This document shows, piece after piece, positions 15,197-22,920 of a stretch of 64,000 nt of DNA. The notes beneath the pieces were generated by a model that was not told the origin of the DNA, did no database searches, and saw nothing but the letters and a program-made list of their open reading frames with translations. This stretch comes from Microbispora hainanensis (GTDB lineage Bacteria > Actinomycetota > Actinomycetes > Streptosporangiales > Streptosporangiaceae), in contig NZ_VIRM01000020.1 of assembly GCF_006874475.1 (NCBI RefSeq), forward strand, positions 1 to 64,000. Reading direction: 5' to 3'. The first letter of the stretch is position 1, and each line of letters opens with the position of its first letter. A program made the translations under genes and the position numbers.

Positions 15197-16321
15197 GTGA
15201 CGGCAGACGTACGGCCGGGTCCGGCCACGACACGGCGGGACCGGGCGATCCGGGTGGGAGGGGTCGCCTGCGCGCTGGCCGCGGCGGCGGTCGTCGTGCA
15301 CGGCGACCTCGGCGCGGCTTCCGGCTGGTGGCTCGCCGTGGACGTGGCCGGCGGCGCGGTGGCGTGCGGGGCGTTGTGGCTGTCGCGCCGGTGGCCGGCC
15401 ACGATGGCGCTCGTGGCCGTGGCGCTGGCGGTGCCCGCGGCATCGGCGTCGGTCGCGGCCGGCATCGCCACGCTGATGACCGCTCTGTATCGCCGCTCGG
15501 CCGTCGCGATCGGGGTGGGCGCGGCGTGGGTGGCCGCGACGCTGGCCCGGTTCTGGCTGCGGCCGCCGGGGCTGGCGCCCTACCCGGTGTGGGCGCTGGT
15601 CGCGGTGCTGTTCGGGGTGGCGCTGACCGGATGGGGGATGCTGGCGCGGGCCCGCCGTCAACTGGTGCTGTCGCTGGAGGAGCGGGTCCGCAGGGCCGAG
15701 GAGGAGCAGCGGCGACGCGTCGAACAGGCCCGCCACGCCGAACGCCTGGCCATCGCGCGCGAGATGCACGACGTGCTGGCGCACCGGCTGTCGCTGCTGG
15801 CCCTGCACGCCGGGGCGCTGCAGTTCAACGCGCGGGCCGACCCCGAGGAGGTCGTCGAGGCGGCCGCGGTGGTGCGCTCCAGCGCGCACCAGGCGTTGCA
15901 GGAGCTGCGCCAGGTCATCTCGGTGCTCCGCGAGGCGCCCGTCCTCGCCGAGCTGGACCTGCACGCTCTGGTCGAGGAGGTACGGCAAGCGGGCATGCAG
16001 GTGGAGATGCACGACGGCGGTGTGCGCCTGCCCGGCCTGCCGGGGCTGACGGCGCGGGCGGCCTACCGGATCGTCCAGGAGGGGCTCACCAACGCCAGGA
16101 AGCACGCACCGGGCAGGCCCGTGACCGTCCGCCTCGACGGCGGGCCGGAGCAGGGGCTCGCCATCGAGATACGAAACCCCGTGGTGCACGCTCCCCGGAG
16201 TGAGGGCGCCGGCCTGGCCGGGATGCGGGAGCGGGCCGAGCTGGCGGGCGGCCGGGTGGAGCAGGCCGGGATGGACGAAGGCGAGTTTCGGCTGGCGGTC
16301 TGGCTACCATGGCCGGTGTGA
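15197..16321 (+). CDS. Sensor histidine kinase (HisKA_3 type)
   Basis: Sensor kinase of 374 residues with four to five N-terminal membrane helices, a coiled linker (EERVRRAEEEQRRRVEQ), the phosphoacceptor helix AIAREMHDVLAHRLSLL and an HATPase domain (IVQEGLTNARKHAPG; GAGLAGMRERAELAGG). The GTG start excludes a long upstream frame that only mirrors the divergent membrane-protein gene. It forms a two-gene operon with the following response regulator, with which it overlaps. Signal unknown. Confidence 0.92.
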   Translation: MTADVRPGPATTRRDRAIRVGGVACALAAAAVVVHGDLGAASGWWLAVDVAGGAVACGALWLSRRWPATMALVAVALAVPAASASVAAGIATLMTALYRRSAVAIGVGAAWVAATLARFWLRPPGLAPYPVWALVAVLFGVALTGWGMLARARRQLVLSLEERVRRAEEEQRRRVEQARHAERLAIAREMHDVLAHRLSLLALHAGALQFNARADPEEVVEAAAVVRSSAHQALQELRQVISVLREAPVLAELDLHALVEEVRQAGMQVEMHDGGVRLPGLPGLTARAAYRIVQEGLTNARKHAPGRPVTVRLDGGPEQGLAIEIRNPVVHAPRSEGAGLAGMRERAELAGGRVEQAGMDEGEFRLAVWLPWPV

Positions 16322-16971
16322 GCGCCGTACGCGTGCTGGTCGTGGACGACGACCCGCTCGTCAGGGCGGGTCTGACGCTGATGCTCAAGGGCGCCGACGA
16401 GCTCGTCGTGGTGGGCGGCGTGGCCGACGGCGCCGAGGTCGGAGCCGCGGTCGACGCGTACGCGCCCGAGGTGGTGCTCATGGACATCCGCATGCCGGGC
16501 CTGAACGGGATCGACGCCACCCGGCTGCTGCGGCGCCGGCCCGACCCGCCCCACGTCATCATGCTGACCACGTTCGACGCCGACGAGCACGTCTTCGGCG
16601 CGCTGCGCGCCGGGGCCAGCGGTTTCCTGCTCAAGGACACCCCGCCGGAGGGCATCGTGGACGCGGTGCTCCGGGTCGCGGCGGGCGAGCCCATCCTGTC
16701 GCCCGGCGTGACCCGGCGCCTGATCGCCCACCTGGCGCCGGAGGCGGAGGACCGCCGCCGCGACGACGGACGCAGACTGCTGTCCCGGCTCAGCGACCGC
16801 GAGCGTGAGGTCGCCGCCGCGGTCGGCCGGGGCGCGTCCAACGCGGACATCGCGGCGGAGCTCCACATGAGCGTCGGCACGGTCAAGAGCTACATCTCCC
16901 GCATCCTCGCGAAGACCAACCTGGACAATCGCGTCCAGCTCGCCCTCATCGCCCACGACAATCCGCTCTAG
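16309..16971 (+). CDS. NarL/LuxR-type response regulator
   Basis: Response regulator of 220 residues, cognate to the kinase encoded just upstream. Receiver: DDD (residues 13-15), phospho-acceptor Asp59 in VVLMDIRMPG, TTF, and Lys in FLLKDTPP. Output: LuxR helix-turn-helix LSDREREVAAAVGRGASNAD and VGTVKSYISRILAKTNLDNR. The ATG overlaps the kinase gene by 13 bases. A GTG nine bases later (GTGA overlap) is equally likely and would match the coupling style of the other operons here. Confidence 0.92.
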   Translation: MAGVSAVRVLVVDDDPLVRAGLTLMLKGADELVVVGGVADGAEVGAAVDAYAPEVVLMDIRMPGLNGIDATRLLRRRPDPPHVIMLTTFDADEHVFGALRAGASGFLLKDTPPEGIVDAVLRVAAGEPILSPGVTRRLIAHLAPEAEDRRRDDGRRLLSRLSDREREVAAAVGRGASNADIAAELHMSVGTVKSYISRILAKTNLDNRVQLALIAHDNPL

Positions 16972-17017
16972 CCGTTCCCGGCCCGCGTCGTTCATGCGGT
17001 GGGAGTTGATGCCGCAT

Positions 17018-17077
17018 GCGTTCATGCAGTGTGCGTTCATGCGGTGTGCGTTCCTGCGGTGTGCGTTCATGCGGTGT
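17018..17077. repeat. Four tandem 15-bp repeats between convergent genes
   Basis: GCGTTCATGCGGTGT repeated four times with single-base variants; a partial copy lies just upstream (from 16986). It occupies the gap between the response regulator and the FAD monooxygenase and just enters the 3' end of the latter. Confidence 0.85.
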
Positions 17078-18212
17078 GCCGCCGGTTCAGCCCGGACAGT
17101 TGCCAGGCCAGCCGCGTACGGACGGTGGGGATGCGGCCGGCCAGGGCAAGGACGAGGTTGCGCAGCACGCGGCGGCCGGCGGCGGCGGTGGCGAGCTTGG
17201 TGAGCCGCCCGGCGAGGGCGACCACCTGCTCTGCCTGGGGGAGCCGGGTGGCGGCATAGGAGTCGAGGAGGCTGTCCGGGCCGCCGTCGAGCACCCGGGC
17301 CAGCGTCTCACCCAGGTGTACGGCGTCGTCGATGCCCAGGTTCATGCCCTGGCCACCGGCGGGTGAGTGCACGTGGGCGGCGTCGCCGGCCAGCAGGATG
17401 CGGCCCCGGCGGTAGGTGTCGGCGATGCGGTGGTGGACCCTGAAGCGCGAGCTCCAGATCAGCTCCCGCACCCGCGCGGGCTCGGCCTTCGGGCCGCGGG
17501 TGTCGAGCAGGTGCTGCACCAGGGGGATGCCGGGCTCCTTGGGCGCCTCGTCCACGGTGGCGACGATGCGGTGCAGGCCGCCGGGCAGCGGGGCGACGAC
17601 GACCAGTCCGGCGGGCGAGAAGTACAGGATGACCTCGTTGCCGGGCACCCCGCCGGACAGGCGGACGTCGGCCAGCACGAACGACTCGGCGTAGGTGCCG
17701 CCGCTGAAGCCGATCCCCGCGCTCTGGCGGACGGTGCTGTGCATGCCGTCGGCGCCGATCAGATAGGCGGCGTGGATGCGCTGCCCGTCGTCCAGGGTGG
17801 CGGTGACACCCTCGGCGTCCTGCTTGATCCCGCTCACCCGGACGGGCCTGATCACTTTGCCGCCGAGCTCGTGCAGACGGGCCAGCAGGTGGGCCTCCGT
17901 GTCGGCCTGGGAGATCATCAGAGTGTACGGGTAGGCGGTCGGCAGACCGTCGAAGGGCACCGGCACCAGCACTCGGTCGCGGTCGCGGATGGTGAAGACC
18001 GGAGCGTGGATGCCCTGCGCGGCCAGCCGGTCCGCCACGCCGTACGGCTCCAGGACTTCCAGTGTGCGGGAGTGCACGACGGCAGCGCGAGAGGTGTTGG
18101 CGCCTCCCTCCTGCGCGTCCACGATCACGACCTTCCGGCCGTGCCGGCTCAGGACGATCGCGGCGGTCAGCCCGACGGGTCCGGCTCCCACGATGAGCAC
18201 TTCGGCGTTCAT
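17067..18212 (-). CDS. FAD-dependent aromatic-type monooxygenase
   Basis: Flavoprotein hydroxylase of 381 residues, PHBH/PheA-TetX class. Rossmann motif LIVGAGPVGLTAA at the N-terminus, the DG motif in AYLIGADGMHSTVR, and the FAD ribityl-binding segment LLAGDAAHVHSPAGGQGMN. The ATG was chosen for AAGGAG 6 bases upstream; a longer frame would cross the operators. It faces a TetR gene with three operator copies between them, the usual arrangement for a drug- or aromatic-compound-inducible detoxifying hydroxylase. The substrate is not deducible. Confidence 0.9.
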   Translation of the reverse strand: MNAEVLIVGAGPVGLTAAIVLSRHGRKVVIVDAQEGGANTSRAAVVHSRTLEVLEPYGVADRLAAQGIHAPVFTIRDRDRVLVPVPFDGLPTAYPYTLMISQADTEAHLLARLHELGGKVIRPVRVSGIKQDAEGVTATLDDGQRIHAAYLIGADGMHSTVRQSAGIGFSGGTYAESFVLADVRLSGGVPGNEVILYFSPAGLVVVAPLPGGLHRIVATVDEAPKEPGIPLVQHLLDTRGPKAEPARVRELIWSSRFRVHHRIADTYRRGRILLAGDAAHVHSPAGGQGMNLGIDDAVHLGETLARVLDGGPDSLLDSYAATRLPQAEQVVALAGRLTKLATAAAGRRVLRNLVLALAGRIPTVRTRLAWQLSGLNRRHTA

Positions 18213-18224
18213 GGCGTCTCCTTG

Positions 18225-18298
18225 GTCAACGGTTGTTGGCATGACCGTAAGCCCGCCGCGCGTGCGAAGTCAACAAGTGTTGGCCTACAATCGTTGAC
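18225..18298. promoter_or_regulatory. Three copies of a TetR-type operator between tetR and monooxygenase genes
   Basis: GTCAACGGTTGTTGGC (18225-18240), GTCAACAAGTGTTGGC (18269-18284) and an inverted copy reading GTCAACGATTGTAGGC on the minus strand (18283-18298). The last covers a TACAAT -10 box (18286-18291) that lies 7 bases before the ATG of the TetR gene, implying a leaderless mRNA and tight autorepression. Confidence 0.75.
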
Positions 18299-20041: not shown

Positions 20042-22834
20042 TCACTCGTGTAGTCGTCGGGCTCTTCCGAGGCGGTGGTAGGTGAAGGCCCAGCGGTCTT
20101 TGCCTTCTTTGCGGCGGGTGTAGCGCTCGGGGTGCTGGTAGCGGTCGCGGTTGTGGAACTGGCAGGCCGGGCCGAGCAGTTTCAGGTCGGTGAGGCCGCC
20201 GGTGCTCCAGTTGTCGGCGTGGTCGATCTGGCACATGGTCGCGGGCAGGGGGCAGCCGTCGATCCAGCAGGTGGCGTAGCGGGCGTAGATGGCCCGTCGT
20301 TGGGCGGGGGTGGCCAGGCGGACCTTGCGGCCCATATCGAGGACCTGTCCGTCGGCGTTCATGACGATCCGCACCAACGTGCTGGTGCGGGCGAGGCGGT
20401 GCACGCTGGAGACGGGCAGCACCTGCCCGGTCGCCAGCAGCAACCCCGGCACCATCCCCAGCGACGCCCCCAACGACGCCCCCAACGACGCCCCCAGCGA
20501 CCCACCCAGTGCCGTCCCCAGCAATCCCGGTATGCCCTGGCCATGCCGGCCGTCCCCCGCAGGCCGAGACCCGGCGTGGGTGTGAGGTGCGGAGGCGTCC
20601 TCGGGAGGAGGATCCGGCCGGGTCGCCTCCGAAGGCGCTGCCTGTGATGGCGGTGCGTCCGAACCTGTCGCGTCCGAACCTGTCGCGTCCGAACCTGTCG
20701 CGTCCGAACCTGTCGCGCCCGAAGCCGTCGCGCCCCAAGGCGCTGTGTGCGAAGGCGCTGTGTCCGAATGCCTGCCACCGTCGGCAGGCCATGCTGACGC
20801 GCCCCGCCGGATGTGGGTTGCTCCAGAGCGGGCCGCGCCGCGATCGCAGCCATCGCCCTCTACGGCCGCGGTCTCGTCGCCCTCGGCAGAGGCAGTGCTC
20901 GCAGTCTCATCGCCCTCGGTGGAGGCGGCGTTCGCGGTGTGGTCGCCCTCGACAGAGGCGGTGCTTGCGGTGTCGCGCGGCTTGCACTCGCCGGGCCGCT
21001 GCTCGCCGGCCCTGCGCTCACCGGCCCTGCGCTCACCGGCCCTGCGCTCACCGGCCCTGCGCTCACCGGCCCTGCGCTCACCGACTCCGCAGTCGCGAGA
21101 CTCCTCATCGGCAAGTCCGGCCGCGGCGTCGACGGAACCACGGGCAGGGGCGAGGTCGGTGGCGGGGGCGGTGGCGGGGGCCGCCTCGGCCGCGTCCACA
21201 CCACTGACGTCGGCCTCTGGGATATCGCAGGCATCGGCGCAGGGGTCGGCGGCGGCTTCCTCGCTCGCGCCGTCGGCGCTCCCCGCACCGGCACCTGCCT
21301 TGGCCTCGGCAATGTCGCGCCCGTCCGCGACCTCGGGGGCGTCGATGCCGCCCGCAGCACCGGGGTCGCCCATCGTGCCGGAGACGGTGTCGTCAGCCTG
21401 GCTCGGGTCGTCGGCGCTTCCGGCACAGCCGGGGGCGTAGTCGCGGGTGTCGTCGGCTTCGGCGGGAGCGGGATCGGCGGGGTCGTCGGCGGGGTCGTCG
21501 GCGGGGTCGTCGGCGGGGTCTTCGTCCGGGTCTTCGGTGGCCGGGTCAGCGACGGGGTCGGTGGGGAGGGATTCGGCGCTGACCACGACGAGGAGTTCGG
21601 TGACGATCTGCTGCTCCAGCGCGGCGATGAGGGCGTCCGCTTGGCGCTCCGTCAGCGTGCGGTCATCACCGTCGGCCTTCTTCTTGGCGTACTCCTGCAA
21701 CAGGGTCATCAGGCGGGCGCCGGGTTCACGGGGAATGTAGAACTCCCCTTCCACGCCGCCGCCCTTACCGGGCCGGACCCGCAGGAACCGCCGCCCGTAA
21801 TCGGCCTGCTCATCGCGCTCTTCGCCGTCGGGGTCGAGCACCGCCCGTAGATGGCGGCCGGCTTTGGCCACCTCCGCCGCACCGGCTTTGCCCGCCAGCT
21901 CCACCAGGATCGGCTCCGCCAGTGAGGCCTGCTCATCGGTCAGCCCGGCGACAGCGGCGCAGATGGCCTCCACCACCCCCGCCGCCAACTCACCCACGGC
22001 GAACTTCTCCCGCACCTGAGGGAGGCGCGGCAGCTCAGCCCCCAACGTGAGCAGGCGGCCCGCACCCCCCACCGTCATCCCGGCGGCGGTACGCAACCAC
22101 GACCTGGTGGAGGCATGCCCATGCTGCTTGGCCTGACCTGCACGATGGACCCGGCCCACCCGGTCGGCCAGGGCGCACGTGATCCGATCCCGGGCGAACA
22201 GCAACTCCTCCGCCTCAGCCAGACAAGTGTCCACATCGTCGGGAAGCGGCGCCAGCGCCAGCTCTTGCGCCACCTCACGAACACACCCCACCACCACCCA
22301 CGACGACCGCACACGGCCGCGACCACGACCACCCACACCGGAAGCACCCGCACCAGCGCCACCCGCGCCAGCAGCGTCGGCACCATCAGCATCCCTACGG
22401 GCGGCATTCGGGTCAGAAGCACCAGCACCCTCGGCATCCCCACGCGCGGCATCCCCACGCGCGGCATCCCCACGCGCGGCATCCCCACGCGCGGCATCCC
22501 CACGCGCGGCATCCGCGCCAGCGCCGTCTGCACCAGAGGCAGTCCCACGGGCGGTATCCGCGCTGTCGGCCTCTGCGCCGTCGGCAAGCCTGCCAGCGGT
22601 GTCCGCGCCCGGGCCGGCTGTGCTCCCACTATCGGGCGCACCGTTGCTCGCGGATGTGCTCCCGCTCTGGCTCGCATGCTGCGGCGGCTCGAAGCCGATG
22701 ATCGGGAAGGGCTCGCGGGCGGACGAGCCGTCGGACGACCACAAGGGGGAATTGGCGATCAGACGGTCCCACCACTCACCGTCGCCATCGTTCGAATGAC
22801 GAAGGCGCTCGGGATCGATGTCGAACAGATCCAT
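20042..22834 (-). CDS. 13E12/DUF222-family HNH endonuclease inflated by five internal tandem repeats
   Basis: A protein of 930 residues, about twice the usual 400-550 for this family. The DUF222 region (LAEAEELLFARDRITCALAD, AGMTVGGAGRLLTLGAELPR) occupies roughly residues 185-410. The HNH nuclease motif is at the end (CWIDGCPLPATMCQIDHADN, then LLGPACQFHNR). Between and before them lie long Ala/Asp/Gly-rich stretches built from tandem units: AARGD x5, DPAD x4, GERRA x5-6, GSDAT x4, LGAS x3-4. All unit lengths are multiples of three, so the frame is kept. The ATG follows GGAGGTG closely. Family members are abundant, repeat-associated genes of uncertain function in actinobacteria. The repeats may make a long disordered linker. 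Confidence 0.88.
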   Translation of the reverse strand: MDLFDIDPERLRHSNDGDGEWWDRLIANSPLWSSDGSSAREPFPIIGFEPPQHASQSGSTSASNGAPDSGSTAGPGADTAGRLADGAEADSADTARGTASGADGAGADAARGDAARGDAARGDAARGDAARGDAEGAGASDPNAARRDADGADAAGAGGAGAGASGVGGRGRGRVRSSWVVVGCVREVAQELALAPLPDDVDTCLAEAEELLFARDRITCALADRVGRVHRAGQAKQHGHASTRSWLRTAAGMTVGGAGRLLTLGAELPRLPQVREKFAVGELAAGVVEAICAAVAGLTDEQASLAEPILVELAGKAGAAEVAKAGRHLRAVLDPDGEERDEQADYGRRFLRVRPGKGGGVEGEFYIPREPGARLMTLLQEYAKKKADGDDRTLTERQADALIAALEQQIVTELLVVVSAESLPTDPVADPATEDPDEDPADDPADDPADDPADPAPAEADDTRDYAPGCAGSADDPSQADDTVSGTMGDPGAAGGIDAPEVADGRDIAEAKAGAGAGSADGASEEAAADPCADACDIPEADVSGVDAAEAAPATAPATDLAPARGSVDAAAGLADEESRDCGVGERRAGERRAGERRAGERRAGERRAGEQRPGECKPRDTASTASVEGDHTANAASTEGDETASTASAEGDETAAVEGDGCDRGAARSGATHIRRGASAWPADGGRHSDTAPSHTAPWGATASGATGSDATGSDATGSDATGSDAPPSQAAPSEATRPDPPPEDASAPHTHAGSRPAGDGRHGQGIPGLLGTALGGSLGASLGASLGASLGMVPGLLLATGQVLPVSSVHRLARTSTLVRIVMNADGQVLDMGRKVRLATPAQRRAIYARYATCWIDGCPLPATMCQIDHADNWSTGGLTDLKLLGPACQFHNRDRYQHPERYTRRKEGKDRWAFTYHRLGRARRLHE
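20459..20506 (-). repeat. 12-bp minisatellite, four units (encodes LGAS)
   Basis: Units of CAACGACGCCCC with minor variants inside the HNH gene, just before the nuclease domain. Confidence 0.85.
20655..20729 (-). repeat. 15-bp minisatellite, four exact units plus one decayed (encodes GSDAT)
   Basis: GCGTCCGAACCTGTC repeated exactly four times, then GCGCCCGAAGCCGTC. Confidence 0.9.
20999..21088 (-). repeat. 15-bp minisatellite, six units (encodes GERRA)
   Basis: GCGCTCACCGGCCCT four times exactly, flanked by one variant unit at each side. The unit is unrelated to the other repeats in this gene. Confidence 0.9.
21479..21526 (-). repeat. 12-bp minisatellite, three exact units plus one variant (encodes DPAD)
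   Basis: GGGGTCGTCGGC repeated in tandem within the acidic linker of the HNH protein. Confidence 0.88.
22438..22512 (-). repeat. 15-bp minisatellite, five exact units (encodes AARGD)
   Basis: CCCCACGCGCGGCAT repeated five times without change, in the N-terminal part of the HNH gene. Perfect identity suggests recent expansion. Confidence 0.92.
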
Positions 22835-22920
22835 CACACCTCCATCCAGCGATTCGAAAACTTGTATCAATTTTCTCGTCTCTCCGAGGACGATGCAAGA
22901 TCAACTAAGAATCTCTTGGG

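Follow-up and report, generated by a model that had tools for sequence, protein, structure and literature searches.

In-frame repeat arrays in the disordered linkers of a dispersed DUF222/HNH-like gene family at fixed loci in Microbispora

A DUF222/HNH-like gene with two disordered linkers

The window (the whole stretch of 64,000 nucleotides of Microbispora DNA that was analysed) carries on its minus strand a DUF222/HNH-like gene, more than half of which encodes sequence that is predicted to be disordered. Its parts, its tandem repeats and the element in front of it are the following:

22852..22865, minus strand: private family start motif ACANNNNTTCGAAT, a candidate promoter/operator directly upstream of the start codon
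20042..22834, minus strand: DUF222/HNH-like gene, an open reading frame of 930 aa with its ATG at 22834 and its stop ending at 20042; the start is conserved in the family
22679..22834, minus strand: N-terminal conserved segment with the motif WWDRLxAxSPLWSS (family alignment)
22298..22678, minus strand: N-terminal disordered linker (pLDDT about 30-40, secondary structure absent)
22432..22514, minus strand: minisatellite AARGD (TRF: 15 bp x 5.5, 100%)
21563..22297, minus strand: N-terminal DUF222 piece (Pfam positions 2-220), homogenised among the copies of each genome
20453..21562, minus strand: main disordered linker, inside the Pfam DUF222 model, with ordered modules and an acidic-to-neutral gradient
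21474..21537, minus strand: minisatellite DPAD (TRF: 12 bp x 5.3, 92%)
21001..21083, minus strand: minisatellite GERRA (TRF: 15 bp x 5.5, 98%)
20867..20975, minus strand: repeat DTASTASAEGD (TRF: 33 bp x 3.3, 76%), beyond the list of the earlier note
20655..20732, minus strand: minisatellite GSDAT (TRF: 15 bp x 5.2, 95%)
20456..20522, minus strand: minisatellite LGAS (TRF: 12 bp x 5.6, 81%)
20054..20452, minus strand: C-terminal DUF222 piece (Pfam positions 252-305) and the HNH-like domain (Pfam; weak fold matches, to HNH nucleases only)
20138..20269, minus strand: HNH-like motif C-x4-C..DH..GG.T..C..H with Leu886 for the usual Asn (alignments)

The match to Pfam PF02720 (79.2 bits, against a curated cut-off of 24.4) is split, in such a way that positions 2-220 of the DUF222 model fall on residues 206-410 and positions 252-305 on the last 142 residues of the protein. 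Since it comes in these two pieces, the main linker can be regarded as an insertion within the DUF222 model. Together with the N-terminal linker (1110 and 381 bp, respectively) it makes up 53% of the gene, and the segment that precedes them, at 22679..22834, has a mean nucleotide identity of 86-89% among family members. The HNH-like motif (CWIDGCPLPATMCQIDHADNWSTGGLTDLKLLGPACQFHN) overlaps the second DUF222 piece and then extends beyond it. This C-terminal piece retains the C-x4-C, DH, GG.T and C..H elements, but Pfam reports no HNH domain for it at E<=1. When compared with other actinobacterial DUF222/HNH members, the 37 aligned sequences of the family all have Leu in the place of the Asn of the HNH motif (Leu886 in the window protein), so that the intact catalytic motif of an HNH homing endonuclease is not present.

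The full-length structure model has a mean pLDDT of 46.6 and is reliable only at residues ~245-335, and that of the HNH piece is weak (mean pLDDT of 61.2), with four fold matches in all (Z 2.1-3.3), namely the HNH nucleases EcoKMcrA, Cap5, TagI and FnCas9. For the modelled DUF222 core (residues ~190-335; window 21563-22297), the DNA-binding domains of ParB, Noc and Spo0J were matched as a group and represent 11 of the 17 best fold matches (Z 5.6-7.6). As these Z values are below the safe level for helical domains, the match serves as a lead only, according to which DUF222 may contain a ParB-like helix-turn-helix. ParB was not recovered when solved structures were searched with a diverse DUF222 profile, and neither this profile nor the window gene found a solved structure by sequence. 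Known defence, phage or NCBI-named proteins were ruled out for the window gene by searches of PADLOC, PHROGs and NCBIfam, all of them without a match, and none of the papers in the collection searched dealt with HNH endonucleases of Microbispora. In general terms, DNA is the most likely target of the protein, with DNA binding by DUF222, an HNH-like module and a flexible acidic tether between them.

Repeat arrays in the window gene

An earlier note on this DNA had described five in-frame arrays with units of 12 or 15 bp in the gene, for which it gave the exact coordinates, and TRF confirms all five of them. Identity is perfect in AARGD (100%) and ranges from 81 to 98% in the others, and a sixth array, with a unit of 33 bp, had been overlooked; TRF also finds shorter arrays in the gene. 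The note further held that the repeats double the size of the protein, which is far from what they contribute: the five arrays measure 64-83 bp each and 375 of 2793 bp in sum (13% of the gene), and collapsing each of them to one unit would remove 306 bp (~102 aa, ~11% of the length), the large part being the linkers as a whole. The location that it proposed, between DUF222 and the nuclease, has to be corrected as well, given that AARGD lies in the separate N-terminal linker and that the main linker interrupts the DUF222 model itself, from Pfam position ~220 to 252. The rapid variation that it anticipated is supported by comparisons across species (single isolates, one genome per species) and across paralogs. 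A closed sister genome (G011, genus Microbispora) has, at the syntenic locus, one copy of AARGD, none of GSDAT, one of LGAS and four of GERRA (five in the window gene), and AARGD, by the copy-count method, reaches six tandem copies in the window gene and at most one in any other gene among 33 of the family.

A dispersed family at stable places

Actinobacteria carry many DUF222/HNH genes, whose function is, to our knowledge, undefined. The genome to which the window belongs (8.7 Mb in 251 contigs) has 35 DUF222 matches, and the start motif delimits 18 family starts in it, plus one with a variant motif (i.e., ~19). The closed genome G011 has 22 family copies and seven copies of a second kind, and all the genomes of the genus examined bear DUF222 matches, from four to more than 40. 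For 18 loci of the window's genome, the flanking DNA corresponds to that of a single G011 locus each, with an identity of mostly 92-97%, and at the window locus the gene adjoins the UPF0060 (YnfA) gene in G000, G011, G012, G010 and G001. In G003, G006, G008 and G013 the window gene is missing at its locus, where other sequence was found and a clean empty junction was not seen. Because flanks and places match between the species for almost all copies, the genes are to be seen as a dispersed family that keeps its positions and not as a moving element. A mobile element with defined ends was considered and rejected, since the homology between copies ends variably, from -8 to -169 bp upstream, and the places are shared in the two species. 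The precise insertion into an empty site that characterises HNH homing was likewise not found, the places being common to two species and empty sites having been checked at the window locus.

The start motif ACANNNNTTCGAAT has 19 matches in the genome, as opposed to none in a reversed control. Eighteen of these matches precede a family start, with a short and nearly constant spacing. The motif looks like a degenerate LexA box; the canonical box, CGAACNNNNGTTCG, was looked for at family starts and not found. In M. tuberculosis, some 13E12 genes are LexA-regulated as part of the SOS response (PMC5005354; PMC4181829).

All 12 complete copies of the window's genome have an unbroken reading frame. 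Several others end at contig ends, within or just past the near-identical DUF222 part, a reminder that draft assemblies break at DUF222/HNH family genes. In G011, at least two of the 22 copies look broken: L127 (G011:C1:2058500-2069500), with a frame change within the linker, and the copy syntenic to the window gene (L107:9978-13798), where an element with an rve-type transposase (rve/HTH_21 domains) interrupts the gene just before its HNH part and a Mutator-family transposase gene lies just downstream of the copy.

Exchange between loci and selection on the folded domains

The nearest relative of a copy is almost always another copy in the same genome (34 of 34 cases for the DUF222 part, 39 of 40 for the HNH part). 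In the DUF222 part, orthologs are no closer to each other (87.0%) than they are to the other copies of the sister genome (86.9%), and the syntenic ortholog can take any rank between 1st and 21st among 22. This is reflected in the DUF222 tree, which sorts by genome and not by locus, with 12 copies of the window's genome in one clade (support 100/99) and the 22 sister copies in another (98/95); the HNH parts show the same clustering, in a weaker form. A Sawyer-type runs test for mosaic identity gave p<=0.002 in four of four sets. Furthermore, different loci of one genome share exact tracts of main linker, the longest of which measure 204 bp in G000 and 331 bp in G011, whereas between orthologs they do not exceed 40 bp. 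Clustering by genome, mosaic runs and shared tracts together form the signature of gene conversion.

The folded domains are under strong purifying selection, as indicated by a Ka/Ks of 0.08-0.16. Ortholog Ks in the DUF222 part is 0.40, against a median of 0.10 in 38 neighbouring genes, in line with homogenisation within each genome. Less easily reconciled with it, copies within a genome differ by a Ks of 0.21-0.25, more than that between-species median. Either homogenisation is incomplete, then, or the family mutates faster. In the DUF222 part, 69 sites share at least two alleles between the species, which would fit an old pool of variants that is being reshuffled and would complicate simple concerted evolution. 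The within-genome Ks and the shared alleles would be accounted for by such reshuffling of a pool across loci, by an elevated mutation rate or by the two together.

Turnover of the linkers

The abundance of repeats in the linkers is a property of the whole family. In 55,075 bp of linker from 34 family genes, 215 arrays with a score of at least 50 were observed, far more than the 5.8 on average (10 at most) that were obtained when the codons were shuffled. Their periods are nearly all multiples of 3, as expected under selection on the reading frame. The closed genome G011 has the same type of array in 22 of 22 copies, up to 489 bp in length, and two of its loci, L113 and L115 (genes 1693-1944 and 1699-2187), carry one 120-bp unit in 2.1 and 4.1 copies, respectively, which is a direct case of block sharing at differing copy number.

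Leaving aside a copy that carries an insertion, the N-terminal linker ranges from 102 to 675 bp among family members and the main linker from 684 to 1788 bp (2.6-fold), while the folded domains are nearly alike. Between orthologs, linker sequence is fully replaced. What is kept is the composition (A, G, D, P, T, S and E) and, as read from the translations, the order of the modules: acidic DP-rich, AEA/GSD, GER, STAEGD, TAPS, PPPED..HTHAG and PGASLG. In the structure model of the window protein the linkers lack secondary structure. The charge per residue of the main linker rises by quarters from -0.30 through -0.19 and -0.09 to -0.01 (SD 0.03-0.07, 32 copies), whereas in the five other reading frames it is positive or near zero. 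This conserved gradient may reflect inherited module order and not selection.

Origin of the arrays and alternative explanations

The explanation that we regard as very probable is that of a fixed, dispersed family of ~20 paralogs of the 13E12 type, subject to in-frame slippage, gene conversion between loci and purifying selection, in which the arrays are for the most part a tolerated by-product. Slippage or unequal recombination, in frame and within the low-complexity, GC-rich DNA of the linkers, would make and lose repeats of 6-135 bp. Gene conversion between the ~20 loci would homogenise the folded domains in each genome, move blocks of linker from one locus to another and spread or remove repeats on the way. 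Purifying selection, which is seen on the two folded domains, would also maintain the frame and the start motif and, in the linkers, the bulk properties (disorder, gradient and module order), barely holding linker sequence or length, and the five minisatellites would need no function of their own, let alone that of a length rheostat. Slippage as the source of the repeats, conversion as the means of exchange and tolerance rather than selection of the arrays are what the sequence comparisons point to, the putative conversion tracts being themselves deduced from sequence. Alongside tolerance, selection on repeat number in individual copies is possible.

Could the genes themselves be responsible for the exchange? 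A resident network of ~20 fixed HNH-like genes, which share one private start motif and by themselves bring about the conversion between their loci, is unlikely in our view, and so are the means that it would need (nicking or cutting of family loci with repair from other copies, or DNA binding plus recruitment of a recombinase, that is, a kind of homing without movement to new sites) and the outcome ascribed to it, with folded domains made uniform and linkers left to diversify. HNH homing enzymes do exist, there is strong exchange with the genes themselves at its centre, and the start motif is shared and specific to the family. Nevertheless, the loci are fixed and no clean empty site was seen, the central Asn of the HNH motif is Leu, and ordinary RecA-dependent conversion, given 20 similar copies, would have an equal effect.

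It is also quite unlikely that linker variety is useful in itself, as in antigenic or effector repertoires, with conversion shuffling it. Some 20 intact-looking copies with differing linkers, whose blocks are reshuffled, would suit such a family; however, the bulk properties are kept while the sequence drifts, which fits drift under a constraint on composition, and an informal look at the sequences revealed no apparent signs of secretion or surface display.

We give little credit to the tuning of linker length put forward in the earlier note, where repeat number would set the distance between DUF222 and the nuclease, adjust its activity and be selected for its variation. In its favour, the arrays are in frame, their copy number changes and the linkers are predicted to be disordered. 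Against it, the main linker varies over the range given above both within and between genomes with its domains nearly unchanged and with composition, module order and charge gradient kept, the five arrays shift the length by only ~11%, and one of them lies outside the DUF222-HNH interval. Moreover, the loss of the Asn in all 37 members makes it doubtful that a nuclease activity depends on linker length. Mis-assembly of repeats in a draft of 251 contigs, which the same note had named as a possible objection, is highly improbable: several copies do break at contig ends in or after the DUF222 part, but the window arrays (at most 83 bp, or 109 bp for the 33-bp one) are shorter than usual reads, the closed G011 has the same type of array, and the frame is intact in every complete copy of the draft.

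Relation to known systems

The nearest known system is that of the REP13E12 genes of M. tuberculosis, which combine DUF222 and HNH in dispersed copies of undefined function and rank among the top gene-conversion hotspots of that species (PMC13061034). The Microbispora family shares with this 13E12 repeat family the Pfam domain pair, the presence of several dispersed copies per genome and the signs of conversion between them, in genes that are hotspots of conversion and diversity. Unlike REP13E12, it has ~20 copies at conserved places in two species; its DUF222 carries a large, repeat-rich and disordered insertion, its HNH motif lacks the Asn, and a private start motif (ACANNNNTTCGAAT) stands in place of the canonical LexA box. 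The number of fixed loci common to two species, the insertion in DUF222, the degenerate HNH and the private start motif are what is new here.

The PE_PGRS genes of M. tuberculosis have glycine-rich repeats and encode proteins linked to the cell surface, and their domains are unrelated to those of the Microbispora family. They resemble it as a multigene family in which a repeat-rich variable part is joined to a conserved domain, with gene conversion between copies (PMC13061034). The likeness to HNH homing endonucleases resides in the HNH-type motif, the weak fold matches and the association of nuclease genes with gene conversion; unlike them, the family has fixed loci, no clean empty site was found and the catalytic motif is degenerate.

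With ~20 copies at matching places, closed and draft genomes and a shared start motif, Microbispora makes two questions directly testable: is gene conversion among DUF222/HNH genes driven by these genes themselves? And what must a disordered linker keep when its sequence turns over fully in one species split?

Related genes and repeats

The second kind of DUF222/HNH gene (L043 and L129-L135), of which one copy was seen in the window's genome and seven in G011, encodes proteins of 1016-1353 aa whose HNH motif has its Asn and whose linkers also contain tandem repeats. In addition, a 15-bp array (x 6.1) occurs in the window at 16989-17079, at the junction of a FAD-binding gene (17067-18242) and the start of an open reading frame (16063-17070). 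Since this array has only ~1-2 copies in G011, short-repeat turnover extends beyond the DUF222/HNH family.
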